Source of the DNA: an uncultured Alphaproteobacteria bacterium
Lineage (GTDB): Bacteria > Pseudomonadota > Alphaproteobacteria > Rs-D84
Assembly: GCA_944389495.1 (NCBI GenBank)
Contig: CALXMN010000004.1
Coordinates: 1-64,000, forward strand
Length of the DNA stretch: 64,000 nucleotides
Reading direction: 5' to 3'
The translations under genes and the position numbers were made by a program. The notes under the pieces are model-generated. The model was given only the letters and a program-made list of their open reading frames with translations. It was not told the origin of the DNA and searched no databases. Every line of letters starts with the position of its first letter. Position 1 is the first letter of the stretch. Positions 2,483 to 9,777 of this stretch are shown here, piece by piece.

Positions 2483-2511
2483 TTGTATTTATTTTTTACA
2501 TAATTTATAAT
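2483..2511 (+). promoter_or_regulatory. Promoter of the structured leader RNA
   Basis: A -35 box TTGTAT at 2483-2488 and a perfect -10 box TATAAT at 2506-2511 are 17 bases apart. Transcription would start near 2517, exactly at the first hairpin of the leader. The same arrangement, TTGTGT-17-TATAAT, precedes the related leader of the autotransporter. Confidence 0.75.
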
Positions 2512-2516
2512 TTTTT

Positions 2517-2768
2517 TGAATCCAAATGGATTTTGGGTTCGGGACTTAGAAAATCCCATAAATACGCGATGTGCCACCGCACATTGTTATCCATATGAAA
2601 GAAAATAAGTATCAATGTTAAGTTGATCGTTTTCTTTTGTCCCGATATTAAAATGTCGGGAAGCCACGATTATACAACAGGGTTCCCCCAAAAGTCGTGG
2701 GGTCATTCGTATTTATGATTTTTCTAACTTCCCGACCACCAAGGTTTTTGGTGGTTTTTGTTTTTTAC
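2517..2768 (+). promoter_or_regulatory. Structured leader RNA, motif 1 copy 1, switch-like
   Basis: A 5' hairpin at 2519-2532 (AATCC, GGATT) is followed by a long closing helix P1. P1 pairs 2540-2544 with 2730-2734, 2546-2554 with 2718-2727, and 2557-2566 with 2708-2717. Inside are hairpins 2569-2584, 2597-2638 (with an inner stem 2611-2627), 2640-2661 and 2664-2700. The last has the loop sequences TTATACAACAGGGTTC and CCAAAAG, conserved in the autotransporter leader. A terminator-like hairpin at 2735-2755 plus T-run follows. The P1 3' strand (2720-2732) can alternatively pair over 12 base pairs with 2776-2787, which covers the ribosome binding site. Pairings were found by eye; the regulatory role is inferred. 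Confidence 0.75.
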
Positions 2769-2788
2769 AAATCAAGGAGTTAGAAAAT

Positions 2789-3352
2789 ATGAAAAATTGT
2801 GTAAAATATATAGTTTTTGTTTTGGGGTTTGCGCTGGTTGGGCCAGAAAGCAGGGCAGATAATTATTTCCCATCAGATGATTTATTATATGCAATCAATG
2901 ATTGGGTAGCAAACGTTTTTCACAGATATAAATATCCGGGACTTCTTTTTGAACAGCCGTCTAAATTTATAGAACCGTTGACGGATGATGATGGAATAAA
3001 AGTAAAATTTGATCTCATCTTTTGGATGGATCAAGAGGAAGGGGAAGGAGTATGTTTTTACAAGTGTCCCGATGATATGTACGAGGCCAAGGCAGGTCCA
3101 GACACGGTTGTTTGTTATGACTGCAGGTATCAAGATTGTGAAAATCTGCCGTTTTCGGGGTATTGCCAGCCGTGCCCTGAATTAGAAGGTTCTTTGATTC
3201 CAAGAAAAATTCTGCCAACAAAAGAACTTAGCAGTCCCTATGATGGTATATACTACTATGATATTCGTGCCTGTGCCATACCCAAAGATGTAGTGGGTAC
3301 GGACGAGTCGGGAACATTCTTTTTTACGGAAAATTGTTATTATTCAGAGTAA
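2789..3352 (+). CDS. Secreted Cys-rich protein, unknown function
   Basis: A 187-residue protein with an N-terminal signal sequence (basic start, hydrophobic core, probable cleavage near Ala23) and ten cysteines in the mature part, many in CxxC-like pairs such as CYDCRYQDC and CQPCPELE. It is probably exported and disulfide-bonded. I recognise no family. The start is fixed by AAGGAG ten bases upstream. That site is within reach of an anti-Shine-Dalgarno strand in the leader, so expression is probably switched by the RNA. It stands alone, with family A and B genes convergent to it. Confidence 0.75.
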   Translation: MKNCVKYIVFVLGFALVGPESRADNYFPSDDLLYAINDWVANVFHRYKYPGLLFEQPSKFIEPLTDDDGIKVKFDLIFWMDQEEGEGVCFYKCPDDMYEAKAGPDTVVCYDCRYQDCENLPFSGYCQPCPELEGSLIPRKILPTKELSSPYDGIYYYDIRACAIPKDVVGTDESGTFFFTENCYYSE

Positions 3353-3359
3353 AAAAGAT

Positions 3360-3695
3360 TTAAAACAAATCGTCATCGCGCGAGATGAAAAAAGCCGATC
3401 GTGATTGACGGGGCGTTATTCCAATGGGCAGGCCCGTGAATTTATATGCGCCACTGATGTCGCTGTATTCTGTGTTTGCGGGCGCGTACATTATACACGA
3501 TGCGGCGGGCGGGGTGCCAACAAGACAACTTTCCGCCGTGCCGACGGATGTATAGCCCGTTGGACACGCGCCGTCCGCAAGTATTAAATGTTCTTCGTTA
3601 ATTTGGGTATAATCTGATGGATTTGATGTTGATGGTTCGGTGGCAATTGCCGCACAGGGGGTTAATATTAAAAATGAAATCAGAATTTTTTTCAT
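3360..3695 (-). CDS. Small secreted family A protein
   Basis: A 111-residue protein with a clear signal peptide ending near Ala17-Ile18-Ala19. The family A core runs ADGACPTGYTSVGTAESCL, then SCIMYAPANTEYSD, then SGAYKF, and recurs at 15840-16121 and 57841-58119. Function is unknown; conserved cysteines suggest disulfides in the periplasm or outside. It is the last gene of a B-B-A cassette read on the minus strand, 13 bases after the preceding gene. The tail after YKFTGLP is unlike the family: the TGGAATAA that ends the 15840 gene is also present here but out of frame, so the protein reads about 20 residues beyond it. That suggests a small indel. Confidence 0.75.
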   Translation of the reverse strand: MKKILISFLILTPCAAIATEPSTSNPSDYTQINEEHLILADGACPTGYTSVGTAESCLVGTPPAASCIMYAPANTEYSDISGAYKFTGLPIGITPRQSRSAFFISRDDDLF

Positions 3696-3708
3696 ATCAA
3701 ATACCTTT

Positions 3709-4167
3709 TTAATCGGTTAGATTGCTGAATATTGCAGATATAAAATCAAAATCTTGTGTCAGGCCGCTCATACAATAAGATGTGCAACTTTGGTTACATT
3801 GAAAATAGTTTGAACTGTTGTACACAAATACCCAGCGGGAAACGGCGGGTGATGTCATTTTGCACCAACAGTTGTGATTGTCGGCAACTGTGGCACTTGT
3901 TTCAATGGTGTCGGATGTTGTGCCGGTGGCGGTGCCGGTTTGTGATGAACAGATGGCAACACCGCTTATCGGGGTGGTTATTCCATTTGTTGTACAATTG
4001 GACGACCAATCTATGTTGCGTTGGTCTGTGCCGCTGCCGCTATTCCAGGTACAACGTGTATCGAGCAAATTGGGGGTTAATGCGACGCATTTGGAAACCG
4101 CAATTGCGGGTGATGTTATTGTCGTATATGCTGATACCAATACAGATAATATAAATATTCGTTTCAT
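3709..4167 (-). CDS. Small secreted family B protein
   Basis: A 152-residue exported protein with a signal peptide ending in SPAIA. The start at 4167 gives the signal peptide and is preceded by GGGAAT; upstream in-frame codons belong to the neighbouring gene's frame. The family B signature CWCKMTSPAVSRWV lies two thirds along, followed by Cys-xxx-Cys-xxx-Cys and the ending FSNLTD. Family B has five members in this window and no family that I recognise. It is the middle gene of a B-B-A cassette and probably a disulfide-rich periplasmic or surface protein. Confidence 0.75.
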   Translation of the reverse strand: MKRIFILSVLVSAYTTITSPAIAVSKCVALTPNLLDTRCTWNSGSGTDQRNIDWSSNCTTNGITTPISGVAICSSQTGTATGTTSDTIETSATVADNHNCWCKMTSPAVSRWVFVYNSSNYFQCNQSCTSYCMSGLTQDFDFISAIFSNLTD

Positions 4168-4186
4168 AATATTATTCCCATTGTGT

Positions 4187-4631
4187 TTAGTCGGAAAGAC
4201 TTTTGAACATATTTTTTCGAAAGTTTGAATTTTGTCGAATGGCAACCCCACAGGAAGTGTTGCAATTTTCGACACAGGTGCCATAGTCGCCCAGGCCGCT
4301 GGTATATACCCACGATGATACGGTGGGGACCGTCATTTTGCACCAACAGTGTATGTTGTCGTCGATATTTATTGTAACTGGCGGTTATTTTATCTGATGT
4401 ATCGCTATAGCCGGTGCCGCTTTGGTTTGAACAGGCGGCAATACCGAATATCCGTAAACTTGGGGTATCTGTGGTTTGTTGAAAGCATTCTGCAACCCAA
4501 TCCGCGTGTCCATATGGGGATACGTGTGCGCACGATAAGTATTCGTTTATTGCGATGTTCTTTATAATTGCCGATGCGGGCAGAGTGGTGGCGGCGCAAA
4601 TAATTGTTGCGATTAATAAGTGTCTTTTCAT
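4187..4631 (-). pseudogene. Family B gene with a frameshift
   Basis: The first 80 or so residues form a signal peptide and a family B N-terminal half. In the starting frame the family signature is lost. One base shifted, the sequence continues with CWCKMTVPTVSSWVYT, the Cys-rich tail and FKSLSD, ending at TAA 4187-4189. The frames exchange near 4374-4383, consistent with one extra base. The downstream frame ends correctly 20 bases before the next gene, so decay is recent. Alternatives are translational frameshifting or a sequencing error. It is the first gene of the B-B-A cassette. Confidence 0.7.
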
Positions 4632-4660
4632 ATTTTTATTTTCCCCATTGGTAATAGGTT

Positions 4661-4812
4661 AAAACGACCGTTTGGATTCGGCAAAAAAGGAAAATAAAAA
4701 ATCCCGGAAATCCGGGGATTTTACAGGTAATAAAAAAGCCACCTGTAAACTGTGGTTTGTTTTCGGCATTTGTTTATATAATATTTTATCTGAAATTTTG
4801 TGTCTGTGTCAA
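4661..4812 (-). promoter_or_regulatory. Promoter and structured leader, motif 2 copy 1
   Basis: On the minus strand, TTGACA (4812-4807) and TAAAAT (4788-4783) are 18 bases apart. The box ATGCCGAAAA follows 13 bases later, then AAACCACAGTTT (4758-4747). A 9-bp hairpin TTTACAGGT/ACCTGTAAA comes next, then an intrinsic-terminator-like hairpin at about 4690-4722 followed by TTTTTTATTTT. The segment GCCGAATCCAAACGGT at 4682-4667 closes the element. The terminator lies between promoter and first gene, so the cassette is probably controlled by attenuation. The same box and inverted-repeat pieces precede the genes starting at 20337 and 56888. Confidence 0.6.
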
Positions 4813-4815
4813 CAA

Positions 4816-4846
4816 GAAATCCCCGGATTTATTCCGGGGATTTTGT
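4816..4846. terminator. Hairpin terminator after the autotransporter
   Basis: AAATCCCCGGA and TCCGGGGATTT form a strong stem about 25 bases beyond the autotransporter stop codon. T-rich sequence follows on the plus strand and a weaker T-rich stretch on the minus strand. Confidence 0.65.
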
Positions 4847-4870
4847 TTTTGTATAAAATTCAGTGTCCTT

Positions 4871-7800
4871 TTAGAAATCATATCTGAATTTCAACATACC
4901 GGTTTGGGATGTATAGTGTTCGTGTAAATCCAAATCATAATTTACAGAAATTTCCAAACCGTTATATATTGCGGATAATCCGATACCGAATTCGCCGCCA
5001 AAGCGTGACAGGCGATCGCCACTGACCACGTATGATGCCGAGCCCGGCAATATAACTGTGGATAATGCTTCGTCTGACATAACATCATATGTTGCCGCCG
5101 CGCGCAGTTCCGGACGGAATTGCAGGCGTGCATCCGATTCGATTGTGAATGCATATTTTGCACCAATCACACCGGTCAGATAGTCTGTATCGGCACCTTT
5201 GATTTCCCACAGGCCATTATTATAATCGTCTTGGGAAATATGCAGGTAACGGATTCCGACCTCGGGCGTTATGCCGGCCGCAAAGTCATAACCGGTCATA
5301 ACCTGGCCACCGAACGAATCGACATCATATTCGGCATCCGCGCCAACACCAAACGCAACCTTTTCTTCGGTATAGTTCGCCATTGTATAATTCAACGCGG
5401 CATTTACATACCAATCGTTTGGTTTATATTGGCCATAGACAAACAAACTGTTGCTGTCGATGGTTGTATCACGATTGGAATCAACATCCGTTTCGTTATA
5501 CGCATAACCAATACCGATTGTGTATTTGCCGTTAACCAATGCATCCGCACCAACGGATATACCCTTGGTATCGCCGGTGAATTTGTCGGAATACTTGGAC
5601 CGATTAACCAGACCTTGGGCCCACACGCCATAGTCAATGTTGGCGGCGTCACCACCACTGCGTCCGGCCATTGTGGCACCACCGGCCATACGATTTGCGG
5701 CCACGGACAGAACCTGGGTTTGTACCGCAGATGCCACAGATTGTGCAATTGGTTTATCTTCGGGCATTAACTTTTTCGATTCGGTTTCGATATAGTCTGT
5801 ATCCCCGGCCAACAATGCATTTTGGGCATTTAATGATGCCACATTCATTGTATAGTTTGTACTGTTGCTTAATCCGAACAGTGTTGCCGCGGCACCAGAA
5901 GACAGATTTGTGTTTTCTGCGATTTCCGCAATCGATTTCGTTTCAACAACCATCAAATTATCGTTATTAAACGAAACGTTATACAATGCATCGTTGTACA
6001 GGATTTTATCCGTTGGAACAATTACGCCAAAGTCATATGTTCCAACTGAACCCAACGCCAGATCCAATTTACCGTTTTCGCCGACGGTTATTTCATTCGC
6101 CCGGACACGCGCAAATGAATCAGGGTTAACAATTGATGCAACCAGTGTGCCGTTCAAATCAACAGATGCCTGTTGTATTGTTGTGGCACCAATATCCAAT
6201 GTTGCGCCATTGGCAATGGTCAATGTTCCATTACCGGTAATTCCACCACCAAGTGTCGTTTTTCCATTTGTGATGGTTAACGCCCCAAGGTTATGGATAT
6301 CGTTTGCGACATTGTTTGCAGTATTGCCCGCAAATGTGTTATCGCCGGCAATTTCCATAACGCCATATGCATCGTTATAAATTGCACCGCCATTTTCGCC
6401 GGCACTGTTGCCAGACATATTAACGTTTTGGAATTTTATATACGATGTTGCATCGCTTTGTTGTGGTTTAACATTTGCAAATGCACCGCCAATTTTGCTG
6501 GCCCGGTTCCCGATAAATTCGGCATCCGAAATCAGCGAGATTTTGCCCGCATTAACAATTGCACCACCGGCACCTTCGCCACCTTCGGCGATATTGTTCA
6601 AGAAATCGGTTTCAATGATTGCCTGTATGCTGCCGTTGCCAATTGTGCCCCAGGTGCCGTTATTAATCGCGCCACCGTTCCCAGATGTGTTTTCGCGGAA
6701 TTGAACGTTTTTAATTGTGCCAATTCCACCCTGGTTACGGATTGCGCCACCCTGGGATGTGCCGGCATTATTATTGGCAAACAATGAATATGATATTTCG
6801 CCAATGTATCCGCCTTGGTCCGCGCCAATCAAATTAGAGTTATTGATTGCGCCGCCCTGGGCCGCGTTATTTTCTTGGAACAAAATGTGCGATAATTTAT
6901 CAATTTTACCCTTGTTATAAATGGCGCCGCCGGCACTGGATGTAGTGTTTTTGCCGAATGTGATTTGTTCGGTATTGGCAAAATACATTTCGCCTTCGTT
7001 CCAGATTGCACCACCAAATTTGGCCGTGTTATTTTTGAACGATGTGCCATTGCCAATTGTGGTTTTTACGCTGTTATACAATGCGCCACCCCACAGATCG
7101 GCCGAATTACCATCGAATGTTGATGCATTCAATGTCAACGAAGAATTTTCTGCCGATGCGCCGTTACGTGTTGCAATCGCGCCACCGTATGTGCCGGATG
7201 TGTTACCACTGAACTCGGAATTTTCCACCGTTGTCTGTGAATGGTCATACAGGAATATTGCACCACCACCATTGTCACCATAGTATGCAGGATTACCATC
7301 CGCCACCGCATCATCAAATGTCATATCGCCGGTGGTCTTGTTTCCTGTAAAGGTTGAATTTTTGACCAACATTGTGGCATCAGAAACAACCGCGCCACCT
7401 TCGGCAACGGCCTTGTTTTCAGTGAAGTTTGAACCATCAATCGTGATCGTCCCCGTAGAACCGCTGCCTTGCAGGATTGCGCCACCACTGGCGTTGGCGG
7501 TGTTACCGGTAAACACAGACCCAACAACGTCCAAGTTTGCCGCGGTACCTTTGCCTTGGGCATCATTGGCGGCCCCCTCAAGCACAATGGCACCACCATA
7601 CGTATTGGCTGTATTTCCTGTAAAGGCAGATTCATTAACATTTATGTTGCCTTTGACAGAGTTCTTTACAAACAATGCACCGCCATTTGTTGCATTATTT
7701 GTAGTAAACGTATAATCGTTTAAACTTAATTCCGGATTGTCAGACGATACTTGGTAATATATCGCGCCACCGTTTGTTGCGGAATTTTGTTCAAAAACAA

Positions 7801-9385
7801 AACCATTACCCAATTCAAAATTATTGGCCATTAACGCCAACGCGCCCCCTTTGCCATTTGTATTGGTCGTTTTGTTATTAATAAATTTGGCACCATCGCC
7901 CAATTTAAATTCTGTATTGTTGCCCGTACCAGTATAAATTGCACCAAAGGCCGCACTGGACGTATAATTTTCAAACAAGGAGTTTTTACCAATAATTGTA
8001 CTTTTTGCACCGCTCAAGTTTAACGCGGCTGCAGAACCATTTCCGCCCGACACGATGAAATTATCACCAATGGTTAACGTTCCTTTAGTTCTATTGGACA
8101 ACACCCCCGCACCACCGTCATTGTCAATTATAGAAACATTGTTACCAATGTTCATTGTGCCTTTGTTATACAATGTAGCCTGGTTTGCACTGAACGAAAC
8201 ATTATCTTCAATGGTAACTGTGCCTGTGTTATAAATTGCACCACCTGACGCTGATTTATTGCCAGTAAACGCGGACCCAGATTTAACCGTTAAAACACCG
8301 GTATTGTAAACAGCACCGCCCGCACTAGTCGCATTGTTTTCGGCGTATTCACCATTAATTTCCATTGTTCCGGCGTTATACAGCGCACCGCCATACCCCT
8401 TACCCTTGGTGGCCGTTGCCGTATTTTTGCTGAAATCACCAGTAACTTTTATCGTACCTTCGTTATAGATTGCGCCACCAAATGCATTCGTTGTATTTGT
8501 TTGAACACTGTTGTCTGTAAAATTACCAACAATTTCGTCAATAACAACGTCGCCATTTTGACCGGCATCTGCATCTATCTTAACAGAAATCGCACCACCG
8601 GTTGAATCTTTCTTGTTTTTGGTTGTACCGGTTGTACCGGTTGTGGCGGTCGCTGTGTTGCCGGTAAAATCACCCTCTATCTTATCAATATGAACGGCAT
8701 ATTTATCGGAAATATCACGGTCACTTGCACCACCCTTGATATAGATTGCGCCACCGTTGGCATATCCATCACCGTTGGCACTGTTATTTGTAAAATCGCC
8801 AGTAATTGTACCAATTGTTACACCGCTATCGCCAAACGCACCCTGAATATGCATTGCGCCGCCACCGGCGGAAATTTGATTCCCATCAGCATAATTGGTT
8901 GTACCATCACCCGAATATTGCGCCGTAACAGAATTTCCAGTAAAATCAGCCTGTATACTGCCTATGTCCGTGCCGGCATACAACGCGAACGCACCACCGT
9001 TTGCGGTTGCCTTGCTGGCGGTGGCAGATGTATTAGTAATAGAATTATTTTCAAATGTACCAGTAATTTTACCAATTGTTCCATTATTGTATAAAACAGA
9101 ACCCTGACCAAAAACTTCACCATTATGTCCATCTGTTTTTGTCAGGGTTATGGAATTATTCTTTACTTCGCCCGCATTAATTTCATCAACGGTGTCGCCC
9201 TTTGCAACCTTTAATACGCCACCTGTGCGGTCGGAATCTTCGGCTTCATATTTATTATTGGACCAATTTTTCACGTCCGCCGGATTTGTATATTGCGCCG
9301 TATCCGCCATCGCAGGCATAATTGCCAACGCGGGCAGCACAGAACAAATCTTTAACAAATCTGCTAAATGCTTGTATGTAGACAT
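4871..9385 (-). CDS. Pmp-like autotransporter adhesin
   Basis: A 1,504-residue type V secreted protein. The start at 9385 is chosen because GGGGG lies nine bases upstream and a signal peptide ending in PAMA follows; a start at 9490 would add 35 residues without these features. The passenger contains about 26 GGA[ILVFM] motifs alternating with FxxN motifs (for example FTGN then GGAIVLEG), the repeat type of chlamydial polymorphic membrane proteins, and should fold as a right-handed beta-helix. The last 280 or so residues, from about YGVWAQGL, form the autotransporter barrel and end in FRYDF with a terminal Phe. Adhesion or surface variation is inferred from the family. It is preceded by a 350-base structured leader. 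Confidence 0.9.
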   Translation of the reverse strand: MSTYKHLADLLKICSVLPALAIMPAMADTAQYTNPADVKNWSNNKYEAEDSDRTGGVLKVAKGDTVDEINAGEVKNNSITLTKTDGHNGEVFGQGSVLYNNGTIGKITGTFENNSITNTSATASKATANGGAFALYAGTDIGSIQADFTGNSVTAQYSGDGTTNYADGNQISAGGGAMHIQGAFGDSGVTIGTITGDFTNNSANGDGYANGGAIYIKGGASDRDISDKYAVHIDKIEGDFTGNTATATTGTTGTTKNKKDSTGGAISVKIDADAGQNGDVVIDEIVGNFTDNSVQTNTTNAFGGAIYNEGTIKVTGDFSKNTATATKGKGYGGALYNAGTMEINGEYAENNATSAGGAVYNTGVLTVKSGSAFTGNKSASGGAIYNTGTVTIEDNVSFSANQATLYNKGTMNIGNNVSIIDNDGGAGVLSNRTKGTLTIGDNFIVSGGNGSAAALNLSGAKSTIIGKNSLFENYTSSAAFGAIYTGTGNNTEFKLGDGAKFINNKTTNTNGKGGALALMANNFELGNGFVFEQNSATNGGAIYYQVSSDNPELSLNDYTFTTNNATNGGALFVKNSVKGNINVNESAFTGNTANTYGGAIVLEGAANDAQGKGTAANLDVVGSVFTGNTANASGGAILQGSGSTGTITIDGSNFTENKAVAEGGAVVSDATMLVKNSTFTGNKTTGDMTFDDAVADGNPAYYGDNGGGAIFLYDHSQTTVENSEFSGNTSGTYGGAIATRNGASAENSSLTLNASTFDGNSADLWGGALYNSVKTTIGNGTSFKNNTAKFGGAIWNEGEMYFANTEQITFGKNTTSSAGGAIYNKGKIDKLSHILFQENNAAQGGAINNSNLIGADQGGYIGEISYSLFANNNAGTSQGGAIRNQGGIGTIKNVQFRENTSGNGGAINNGTWGTIGNGSIQAIIETDFLNNIAEGGEGAGGAIVNAGKISLISDAEFIGNRASKIGGAFANVKPQQSDATSYIKFQNVNMSGNSAGENGGAIYNDAYGVMEIAGDNTFAGNTANNVANDIHNLGALTITNGKTTLGGGITGNGTLTIANGATLDIGATTIQQASVDLNGTLVASIVNPDSFARVRANEITVGENGKLDLALGSVGTYDFGVIVPTDKILYNDALYNVSFNNDNLMVVETKSIAEIAENTNLSSGAAATLFGLSNSTNYTMNVASLNAQNALLAGDTDYIETESKKLMPEDKPIAQSVASAVQTQVLSVAANRMAGGATMAGRSGGDAANIDYGVWAQGLVNRSKYSDKFTGDTKGISVGADALVNGKYTIGIGYAYNETDVDSNRDTTIDSNSLFVYGQYKPNDWYVNAALNYTMANYTEEKVAFGVGADAEYDVDSFGGQVMTGYDFAAGITPEVGIRYLHISQDDYNNGLWEIKGADTDYLTGVIGAKYAFTIESDARLQFRPELRAAATYDVMSDEALSTVILPGSASYVVSGDRLSRFGGEFGIGLSAIYNGLEISVNYDLDLHEHYTSQTGMLKFRYDF

Positions 9386-9489
9386 ACGTTCCCCCTTTTT
9401 ATTATGAAGTAAAAACCTTTCTGTGATTAATAGCGTATCATAGTTTTGGTGGCTTGCAACAAAAATGGTTGCGAATTTTTTCCCAAACA

Positions 9490-9742
9490 AAAATACACCG
9501 CCAATCCAAATGGAAATGGCGGTCGGGTGGGTTCAAAAAATCACATAACAGTATGACCCCGCCAGCTTTTGGGTCAAGAACCCTGTTGTATAACTGGCGG
9601 CCCCCCGACCAATGTGGCGGGGAATCACACAATAAACGGCGCAGATGCGCCGCAACGAATACCGTGTGCGGATCTGATACACGTGTGTATCACTGTTATG
9701 TGGGATTTTTGACGTCCCCGAACCCAAATCCCTTTGGATTCA
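9490..9742 (-). promoter_or_regulatory. Structured leader RNA, motif 1 copy 2
   Basis: Read on the minus strand, this has the same order as the leader at 2517-2768. A 5' hairpin AATCC/GGATT (9740-9727) comes first. Closing helix P1 pairs 9702-9692 with 9552-9542 perfectly, extends through an A/T-rich block with the same two-base CC bulge and extra T, and ends in TCGGG/CCCGA. Inner hairpins are TGATACAC/GTGTATCA, CACAC/GTGTG around GGCGCA/TGCGCC, a CCCCG/CGGGG stem, and CCGCCAG/CTGGCGG (9600-9559). The last has loop TTATACAACAGGGTTC and CCAAAAG. A CCGCCA/TGGCGG hairpin and T-rich stretch follow. Stem sequences differ from copy 1 while pairing is kept. Confidence 0.75.
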
Positions 9743-9748
9743 GAAAAT

Positions 9749-9777
9749 ATTATACGCGCCAATATACGAAAACACAA
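9749..9777 (-). promoter_or_regulatory. Promoter of the autotransporter leader
   Basis: On the minus strand, -35 TTGTGT (9777-9772) and -10 TATAAT (9754-9749) are 17 bases apart. Transcription would start near 9742, at the first hairpin of the leader, as for the related leader at 2517. Confidence 0.7.

Follow-up and report, generated by a model that had tools for sequence, protein, structure and literature searches.

Multi-copy leader RNAs before surface-protein genes of an uncultured alphaproteobacterium as probable chromosomal relatives of phage antisense RNAs

The 64,000-nt stretch analysed here (the window) comes from an uncultured alphaproteobacterium (GTDB lineage Rs-D84; assembly GCA_944389495.1, contig CALXMN010000004.1) and carries two copies of a structured leader RNA, one before the gene of a secreted protein and one before an autotransporter gene. 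The two are homologous, strongly covarying RNAs of about 220 nt (Table 1). With a probability of roughly three in four, we read them as c4-type antisense leaders, chromosomal relatives of the phage RNAs sRNA-Xcc1 and c4 that have multiplied to control the genes of surface and secreted proteins. The c4 antisense RNA of phages P1 and P7 is the classical system; it acts in trans, is cut by RNase P, and does not require Hfq. The evidence comprises homology, structure, covariation, the promoter-leader-terminator-gene unit, gene context and complementarity to start regions, all computed directly.

The original prediction had placed two related leaders in front of surface genes, and a single covariance model (R1), built from eight full-length copies including both window copies, recovers them at 2518-2737 (+) and 9741-9521 (-) with 175-196 bits. 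The search of related genomes that had been proposed is productive: R1 detects the RNA in 174 of the 201 genomes of the order. Two copies proved too few, as a full scan with R1 finds 10 in the source genome and 14, 18, 29, 6, and 2 in five relatives. In the 905,540-base genome the loop TTATACAACAGGGTTC has only two exact occurrences, those in the window leaders, and a search of 59 relatives with one mismatch allowed contains seven more clear homologues among its matches. One-mismatch matches at L003, L005, and L006 in relatives were dismissed as chance, as were four exact matches of the loop in viral contigs, where the surrounding sequence is unrelated.

The claim that paired changes point to a selected RNA structure is borne out. 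The alignment used has 99 rows, two of them reverse-strand echoes of true matches; it was made by fitting to the nested R1 structure, and its counts are biased accordingly. In it, double-sided changes occur at 56 of 60 pairs, with 1140 double-change cells against 290 in shuffles and at most 232 when the partners are slid by 1-3 columns. All nine pairs of helix P1 show double changes. The 5' hairpin P0 carries an AGGGAU-type loop across copies. What had been described as a two-base CC bulge in P1 in fact belongs to a small hairpin, PA (consensus GGGN...NCCC), of which it forms the 3' arm; the PA loop TTAGAAAA pairs with TTTTTCTAA near the 3' end to form a long-range helix, PB, and thus a pseudoknot; double changes are found in 8/8 pairs of PB. 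Among the inner hairpins of the original prediction, P4 (CCCCG...GGTCGGGG) does covary, but an equally conserved rival partner of its 3' strand X, the downstream strand Y (CTCCCCGACC), had been missed, as had the pseudoknotted architecture. The X-Y pairing holds in 95.5% of cells, and one of its pairs shows 37 double changes; since X pairs equally well with either partner, P4 and X-Y are alternatives. PA, P6, and X-Y all lie outside the R1 model structure. P5 is conserved as TTATACAACAGGG...CCCAAAG across copies, and P6 (TCAT...ATGA) is nearly invariant and by itself little informative.

The leaders stand in a transcription unit of fixed order: promoter, leader, terminator, start codon. Both window copies have the TTGT(A/G)T-17-TATAAT promoter and the terminator-like hairpin with which they had been credited, and in both, six or seven bases separate the end of the -10 box from the leader; a -10 box 6-7 nt upstream is found in 69 of 99 copies. 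Of 96 copies, 85 have a terminator-like hairpin behind the leader, compared with 1% of shuffles. Start codons could be assigned for 79 of the 96, at a median of 48 nt past the leader end and, in 77 of the 79, at 37-59 nt. Signal-like N-termini are present in 63 of these 79 proteins (80%) but in only 63 of 241 further genes from these loci (26%; p 4e-17), and the Pfam families behind the leaders include family-2 glycosyltransferases, outer-membrane barrels, and autotransporter and YadA anchors. That this is a selected structured leader RNA before surface genes is strongly supported.

Individual loci vary in arrangement. Divergent leader pairs lie 0.6 to 1.8 kb apart, each member with a gene of its own (L097:4219-5304; L086:4008-5655; L078:3604-5832), and at L121:4072-4480 one gene is preceded by two leaders in direct tandem. 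A divergent member (L088:3743-3936, minus strand) shows joint changes in X and Y (GGTCAGGAGG, CCTCCTGACC) and a much reduced P5. R1 also matches (51.4 bits) a site before a helix-turn-helix gene in MT835708.1, an 'unverified bacteriophage' from human faeces (L335:1101-1309), possibly a phage-borne member close to the window lineage.

The original prediction recognised no Rfam class, and this holds at the curated thresholds, where a standard search of the window returns only tRNAs. At relaxed thresholds, however, RF02221 (sRNA-Xcc1) matches the 3' part of eight of nine loci, and control of the c4 type had not been considered. A match to a known family, which had been named among the outcomes that would refute the prediction, therefore exists in part: the best scores 45.7 bits, with a cut-off of 53. 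The 3' 85 nt of the leader is a divergent relative of sRNA-Xcc1, sharing the outer X-Y stem, P5 with (A)TACAA..., P6, and the b' strand; the window leader differs in its length of about 220 nt, its P0, P2, and P3 elements and strong terminator, and its position before surface genes rather than antirepressors. An RF02221 search of the class gives matches in 37 of 289 genomes, and several of these distant alphaproteobacterial loci carry the same 5' half as the window leaders, often together with terminator, Shine-Dalgarno (SD) sequence and ATG. R1 in turn matches such loci over its full length (best E 2.4e-13). Common descent with sRNA-Xcc1 is shown by intermediates such as L051, which scores 56.2 bits with RF02221 and is a full-length match of R1 as well.

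sRNA-Xcc1 is a widespread Rfam family that has been discussed as a trans-acting virulence sRNA (small RNA). In Rfam it is an 87-nt sRNA without a clan, whereas C4 and c4-a1b1 do carry one, and the 5' end of its model coincides with the start of the outer stem, near the RNase P cut position of c4. Mapping by rapid amplification of cDNA ends gave 88 nt, about the length of the Rfam model (PMC2996969). An exact pattern of the Xcc1 core recovers 78 bacterial stretches, a few of them chance matches, from Pasteurellaceae, Neisseria, Desulfovibrio, Xanthomonas, and others, together with at least 120 in viral sequences. For Xylella fastidiosa Temecula1, seven sRNA-Xcc1 homologues are listed (PMC12189769, Table 4); five of them are spaced about 381 nt apart on a single genomic island, and on the c4 reading this tandem array may consist of c4-type elements.

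The genes behind Xcc1-type elements are mostly phage antirepressors (among 83 proteins, with overlap: Bro-N 17, P22_AR_C 12, P22_AR_N 10, pRha 10, KilA-N 10, AntA 7), and the element preceding ant of Haemophilus phage Aaphi23 scores 86.1 bits. In this set the antisense stretch pairs with its own start region at a mean of -21.2 kcal/mol, against -13.4 with swapped genes (z -25), part of the terminator hairpin contributing in some cases, and it is also complementary to an upstream copy (z 22). Xcc1-type elements appear to silence antirepressor genes, and antirepressor control by an upstream copy together with start-region complementarity is the published c4 logic (PMC5320573; PMC12197685). The C4 and Xcc1 models are alike in their 87 positions, outer stem, two hairpins, and b' strand, and in Neisseria weixii a single locus (L208:4610-5651) carries alternating elements, C4, Xcc1, C4, and Xcc1, with an AntA-type gene after the last; isrK-like and c4-a1b1-like stretches below cut-off are present there too, and target copies lie upstream and at the start codon.

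The window leaders share the topology of c4. c4 (RF01695) with c4-a1b1 (RF03163) has an outer stem around two hairpins, with a' in the loop of the second, and a single-stranded b' (PMC5320573), to which X-Y, P5, P6, the P1 3' strand (a'), and the PB 3' strand (b') correspond; also shared are decoy copies (a1/b1) upstream in the same transcript and copies of the target at the ribosome-binding site (PMC5320573). The window leaders differ from c4 in that their targets are chromosomal surface genes and that the sequence of P5 is conserved rather than forming a plain hairpin. An RNase P RNA gene is present. The C4-derived Group 1 sRNAs of Acinetobacter baumannii likewise descend from a phage c4 RNA that was co-opted and is present on the chromosome in many copies, variable in the a' region (PMC5320573); no downstream targets were assigned in that study, whereas copies of the window lineage precede, and tend to match, a gene of their own.

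Complementarity in the window lineage was assessed by exact runs and start-region windows, as long segments and duplex energies were insensitive even in the phage set. By exact runs, the antisense stretch matches the 5' half of the leader (z 32). It also matches the start region of its own gene better than the start regions behind other copies (z -5.7, n=74), and this preference persists within single genomes after removal of similar genes and leaders (z -5.3 to -6.3, n=52). The preference is strongest near the start codon, where windows give z -5.7 to -6.8, with about -6.6 at the start region, and it is absent from the coding sequence (z -0.7 to 1.1). In copy 1, ATTTTTCTAACTTCC lies opposite GGAGTTAGAAAAT at -15.2 kcal/mol, and the predicted read-through fold pairs the start region, with a mean unpaired probability of 0.36, or of 0.19 with the 3' domain alone. 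The window lineage keeps the c4/Xcc1 antisense logic, more weakly than its phage relatives.

We infer from these features that the 3' domain represses translation. Transcription would start at the leader promoter, and the 3' domain (X-P5-P6-b'-Y) would bear an antisense stretch, like CATGATTTTTCTAACTCCCC, complementary to the SD-spacer-AUG of the next gene. The same stretch could alternatively pair with the decoy copy in the 5' half (P1, PB), so that the decoy strands would compete for it. Most transcripts would end at the post-leader terminator, releasing a short RNA that is perhaps also trimmed by RNase P at the X strand, as c4 is, and this short RNA would block translation of the read-through mRNA by pairing with its start region, either in cis or in trans.

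Several results weigh against this reading. The C4 covariance model has no match in the nine loci up to E 10 and none in 59 genomes of the order, a search that had no positive control, and the RF02221 scores of the window copies (38.5 and 36.4 bits) stay, like the best one, below the curated cut-off. A GG at the start of X, the expected RNase P site, occurs in only 56 of 99 rows, and Pfam finds no antirepressor among 70 downstream proteins of the window lineage. The start-region match consists mainly of one block including CCCC and is weaker than in the phage set; without CCCC the own-start preference drops to z -2.6 to -3.2, and the gap between own and other start regions is just 1-2 kcal/mol. 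For copy 2, the match of the leader to its own autotransporter start region is weak (-8.3 kcal/mol) and unconvincing.

A large pseudoknotted leader with alternative pairings (P4 versus X-Y), a terminator, and many copies before diverse surface genes might also be expected of a ligand-sensing riboswitch class that acts via the terminator and start region. GEMM riboswitches, which respond to the second messenger cyclic di-GMP, likewise occur in many copies per genome before surface genes; their fold, however, is unlike that of the window leader. Such a riboswitch, for instance one for a second messenger, is made improbable by the failure to find a GGDEF protein in four genomes in which the controls were detected and by the phage antirepressor elements to which the leader is related. 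In addition, complementarity to the own start codon is copy-specific, and the sequence of P1 and PB varies freely, as in specificity loops and unlike a binding pocket. The window and the nine loci gave no match to an Rfam riboswitch. We consider it just as doubtful that the copies are primarily free-standing sRNAs, terminated just behind the leader and directed in trans at many surface mRNAs, their place before a gene being secondary. Their own promoter and terminator would suit this idea, as would the better pairing of other leaders' start regions than of control genes (-9.0 vs -7.9 kcal/mol) and a promoter-like block between terminator and gene in autotransporter copies, whereas the narrow spacing of leader and start codon and the preference for the own start region speak for control of the adjacent gene. 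Hfq was not found in four genomes, with controls detected, though c4 need not use it; and because c4 acts in trans, free-standing action is compatible with a c4-type antisense leader.

A simple attenuator or protein-binding leader (processive antitermination or a terminator-override element) without antisense action would account for the terminator immediately behind most leaders, yet it leaves the start-codon complementarity and the c4-like relatives unexplained, and we hold it to be very unlikely. Relatives do occur in phages and in integron cassettes (PMC12444791), as a chance or DNA-level repeat such as a mobile element end might; the compensatory changes between very divergent copies, and the fixed register of promoter, terminator, and start codon, reduce a repeat lacking RNA function to a negligible prospect.

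Co-opted multi-copy C4 RNAs are already known from A. baumannii (PMC5320573). As far as searched, what is new is scale and register, with up to 29 leaders per genome of about 1 Mb, each before its own, mostly surface or secreted protein gene, and the view that sRNA-Xcc1 is an antirepressor antisense RNA of the c4 type, a link made by no paper found among open-licence full texts. We lean, with less assurance than for the antisense leader itself, toward a broader view: that an order with reduced genomes has taken over an antisense RNA of phage lysogeny (c4/Xcc1) and multiplied it into a chromosome-wide switchboard, in which each leader would silence the start of its own surface gene and copies would also act on one another's genes, all in cells where neither Hfq nor GGDEF proteins are detectable, and that sRNA-Xcc1 forms a second large branch of the c4-type antirepressor antisense RNAs. 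If so, bacteria with under a million bases would select surface proteins through an RNA device common to temperate phages, and sRNA-Xcc1 would gain a target, a mechanism, and a link to phage lysogeny control. The predictions each concern a defined pair of short sequences.

Table 1. Positions of the leader RNAs, their parts, and associated genes in the window.
Feature	Position	Strand	Evidence
Leader RNA copy 1	2518..2737	+	R1 match 175.5 bits
Leader RNA copy 2; antisense domain from X at 9610 to 9521	9521..9741	-	R1 match 195.7 bits; RF02221 36.4 bits
Promoter of copy 1, TTGTAT-17-TATAAT	2483..2511	+	Sequence
Promoter of copy 2, TTGTGT-17-TATAAT	9749..9777	-	Sequence
P0, 5' hairpin GAATCC...GGGTTC	2518..2540	+	Covariation, helices 1-2
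Putative decoy half: PA hairpin GGGA/TCCC, loop = PB 5' strand (TTAGAAAA, b1-like), then P1 5' strand (ATAAATACG, a1-like)	2541..2566	+	Covariation
P2 hairpin and variable P3 region	2568..2639	+	Covariation
P4 hairpin: Z (TCCCGA) with X (GTCGGGAAG); X alternatively with Y 2728-2736	2640..2663	+	Both P4 and X-Y covary
Probable antisense domain, sRNA-Xcc1/c4 relative: X, P5, P6, a', b', Y	2655..2737	+	RF02221 38.5 bits, cut-off 53
P5 hairpin, conserved TTATACAACAGGG...CCCAAAAG	2664..2700	+	Covariation; loop occurrence in genome
Probable antisense stretch: P1 3' strand (a'), PB 3' strand TTTTTCTAA (b'), Y (CTTCCCGAC)	2708..2736	+	Complementary to 5' half and start region
Intrinsic terminator of copy 1, ACCACC...GGTGGTTTTTG	2735..2766	+	Sequence
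Terminator of copy 2, CCGCCA...TGGCGG, then T-rich stretch	9488..9522	-	Sequence
Putative target start region of gene 1: SD GGAG, spacer TTAGAAAAT, ATG	2773..2791	+	-15.2 kcal/mol duplex with b'/Y; paired in predicted read-through fold
Gene 1, 187-aa secreted Cys-containing protein	2789..3352	+	Open reading frame (ORF), Pfam
Gene 2, autotransporter with PMP-type repeats	4871..9385	-	Pfam PF03797, PF02415

The ATG of gene 2 lies about 135 nt beyond the end of the copy 2 leader. Between leader terminator and autotransporter ATG there is a conserved promoter-like block (TTTTTG/TTTATTG ... TGTGATA/TATGATA) in the window (9385-9490, minus strand) and at L059, L111, and L019, and it is absent from other copies; leaders before autotransporters may be free-standing RNAs. 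The 187-aa protein has no Pfam family above its cut-off, and neither does the neighbouring ORF 3360-3695 belong to a Pfam family. Together with ORFs 4164-4631 and 3709-4284, the latter forms a group beside the 187-aa gene (3360-4631, minus strand) that resembles a run of small secreted proteins.

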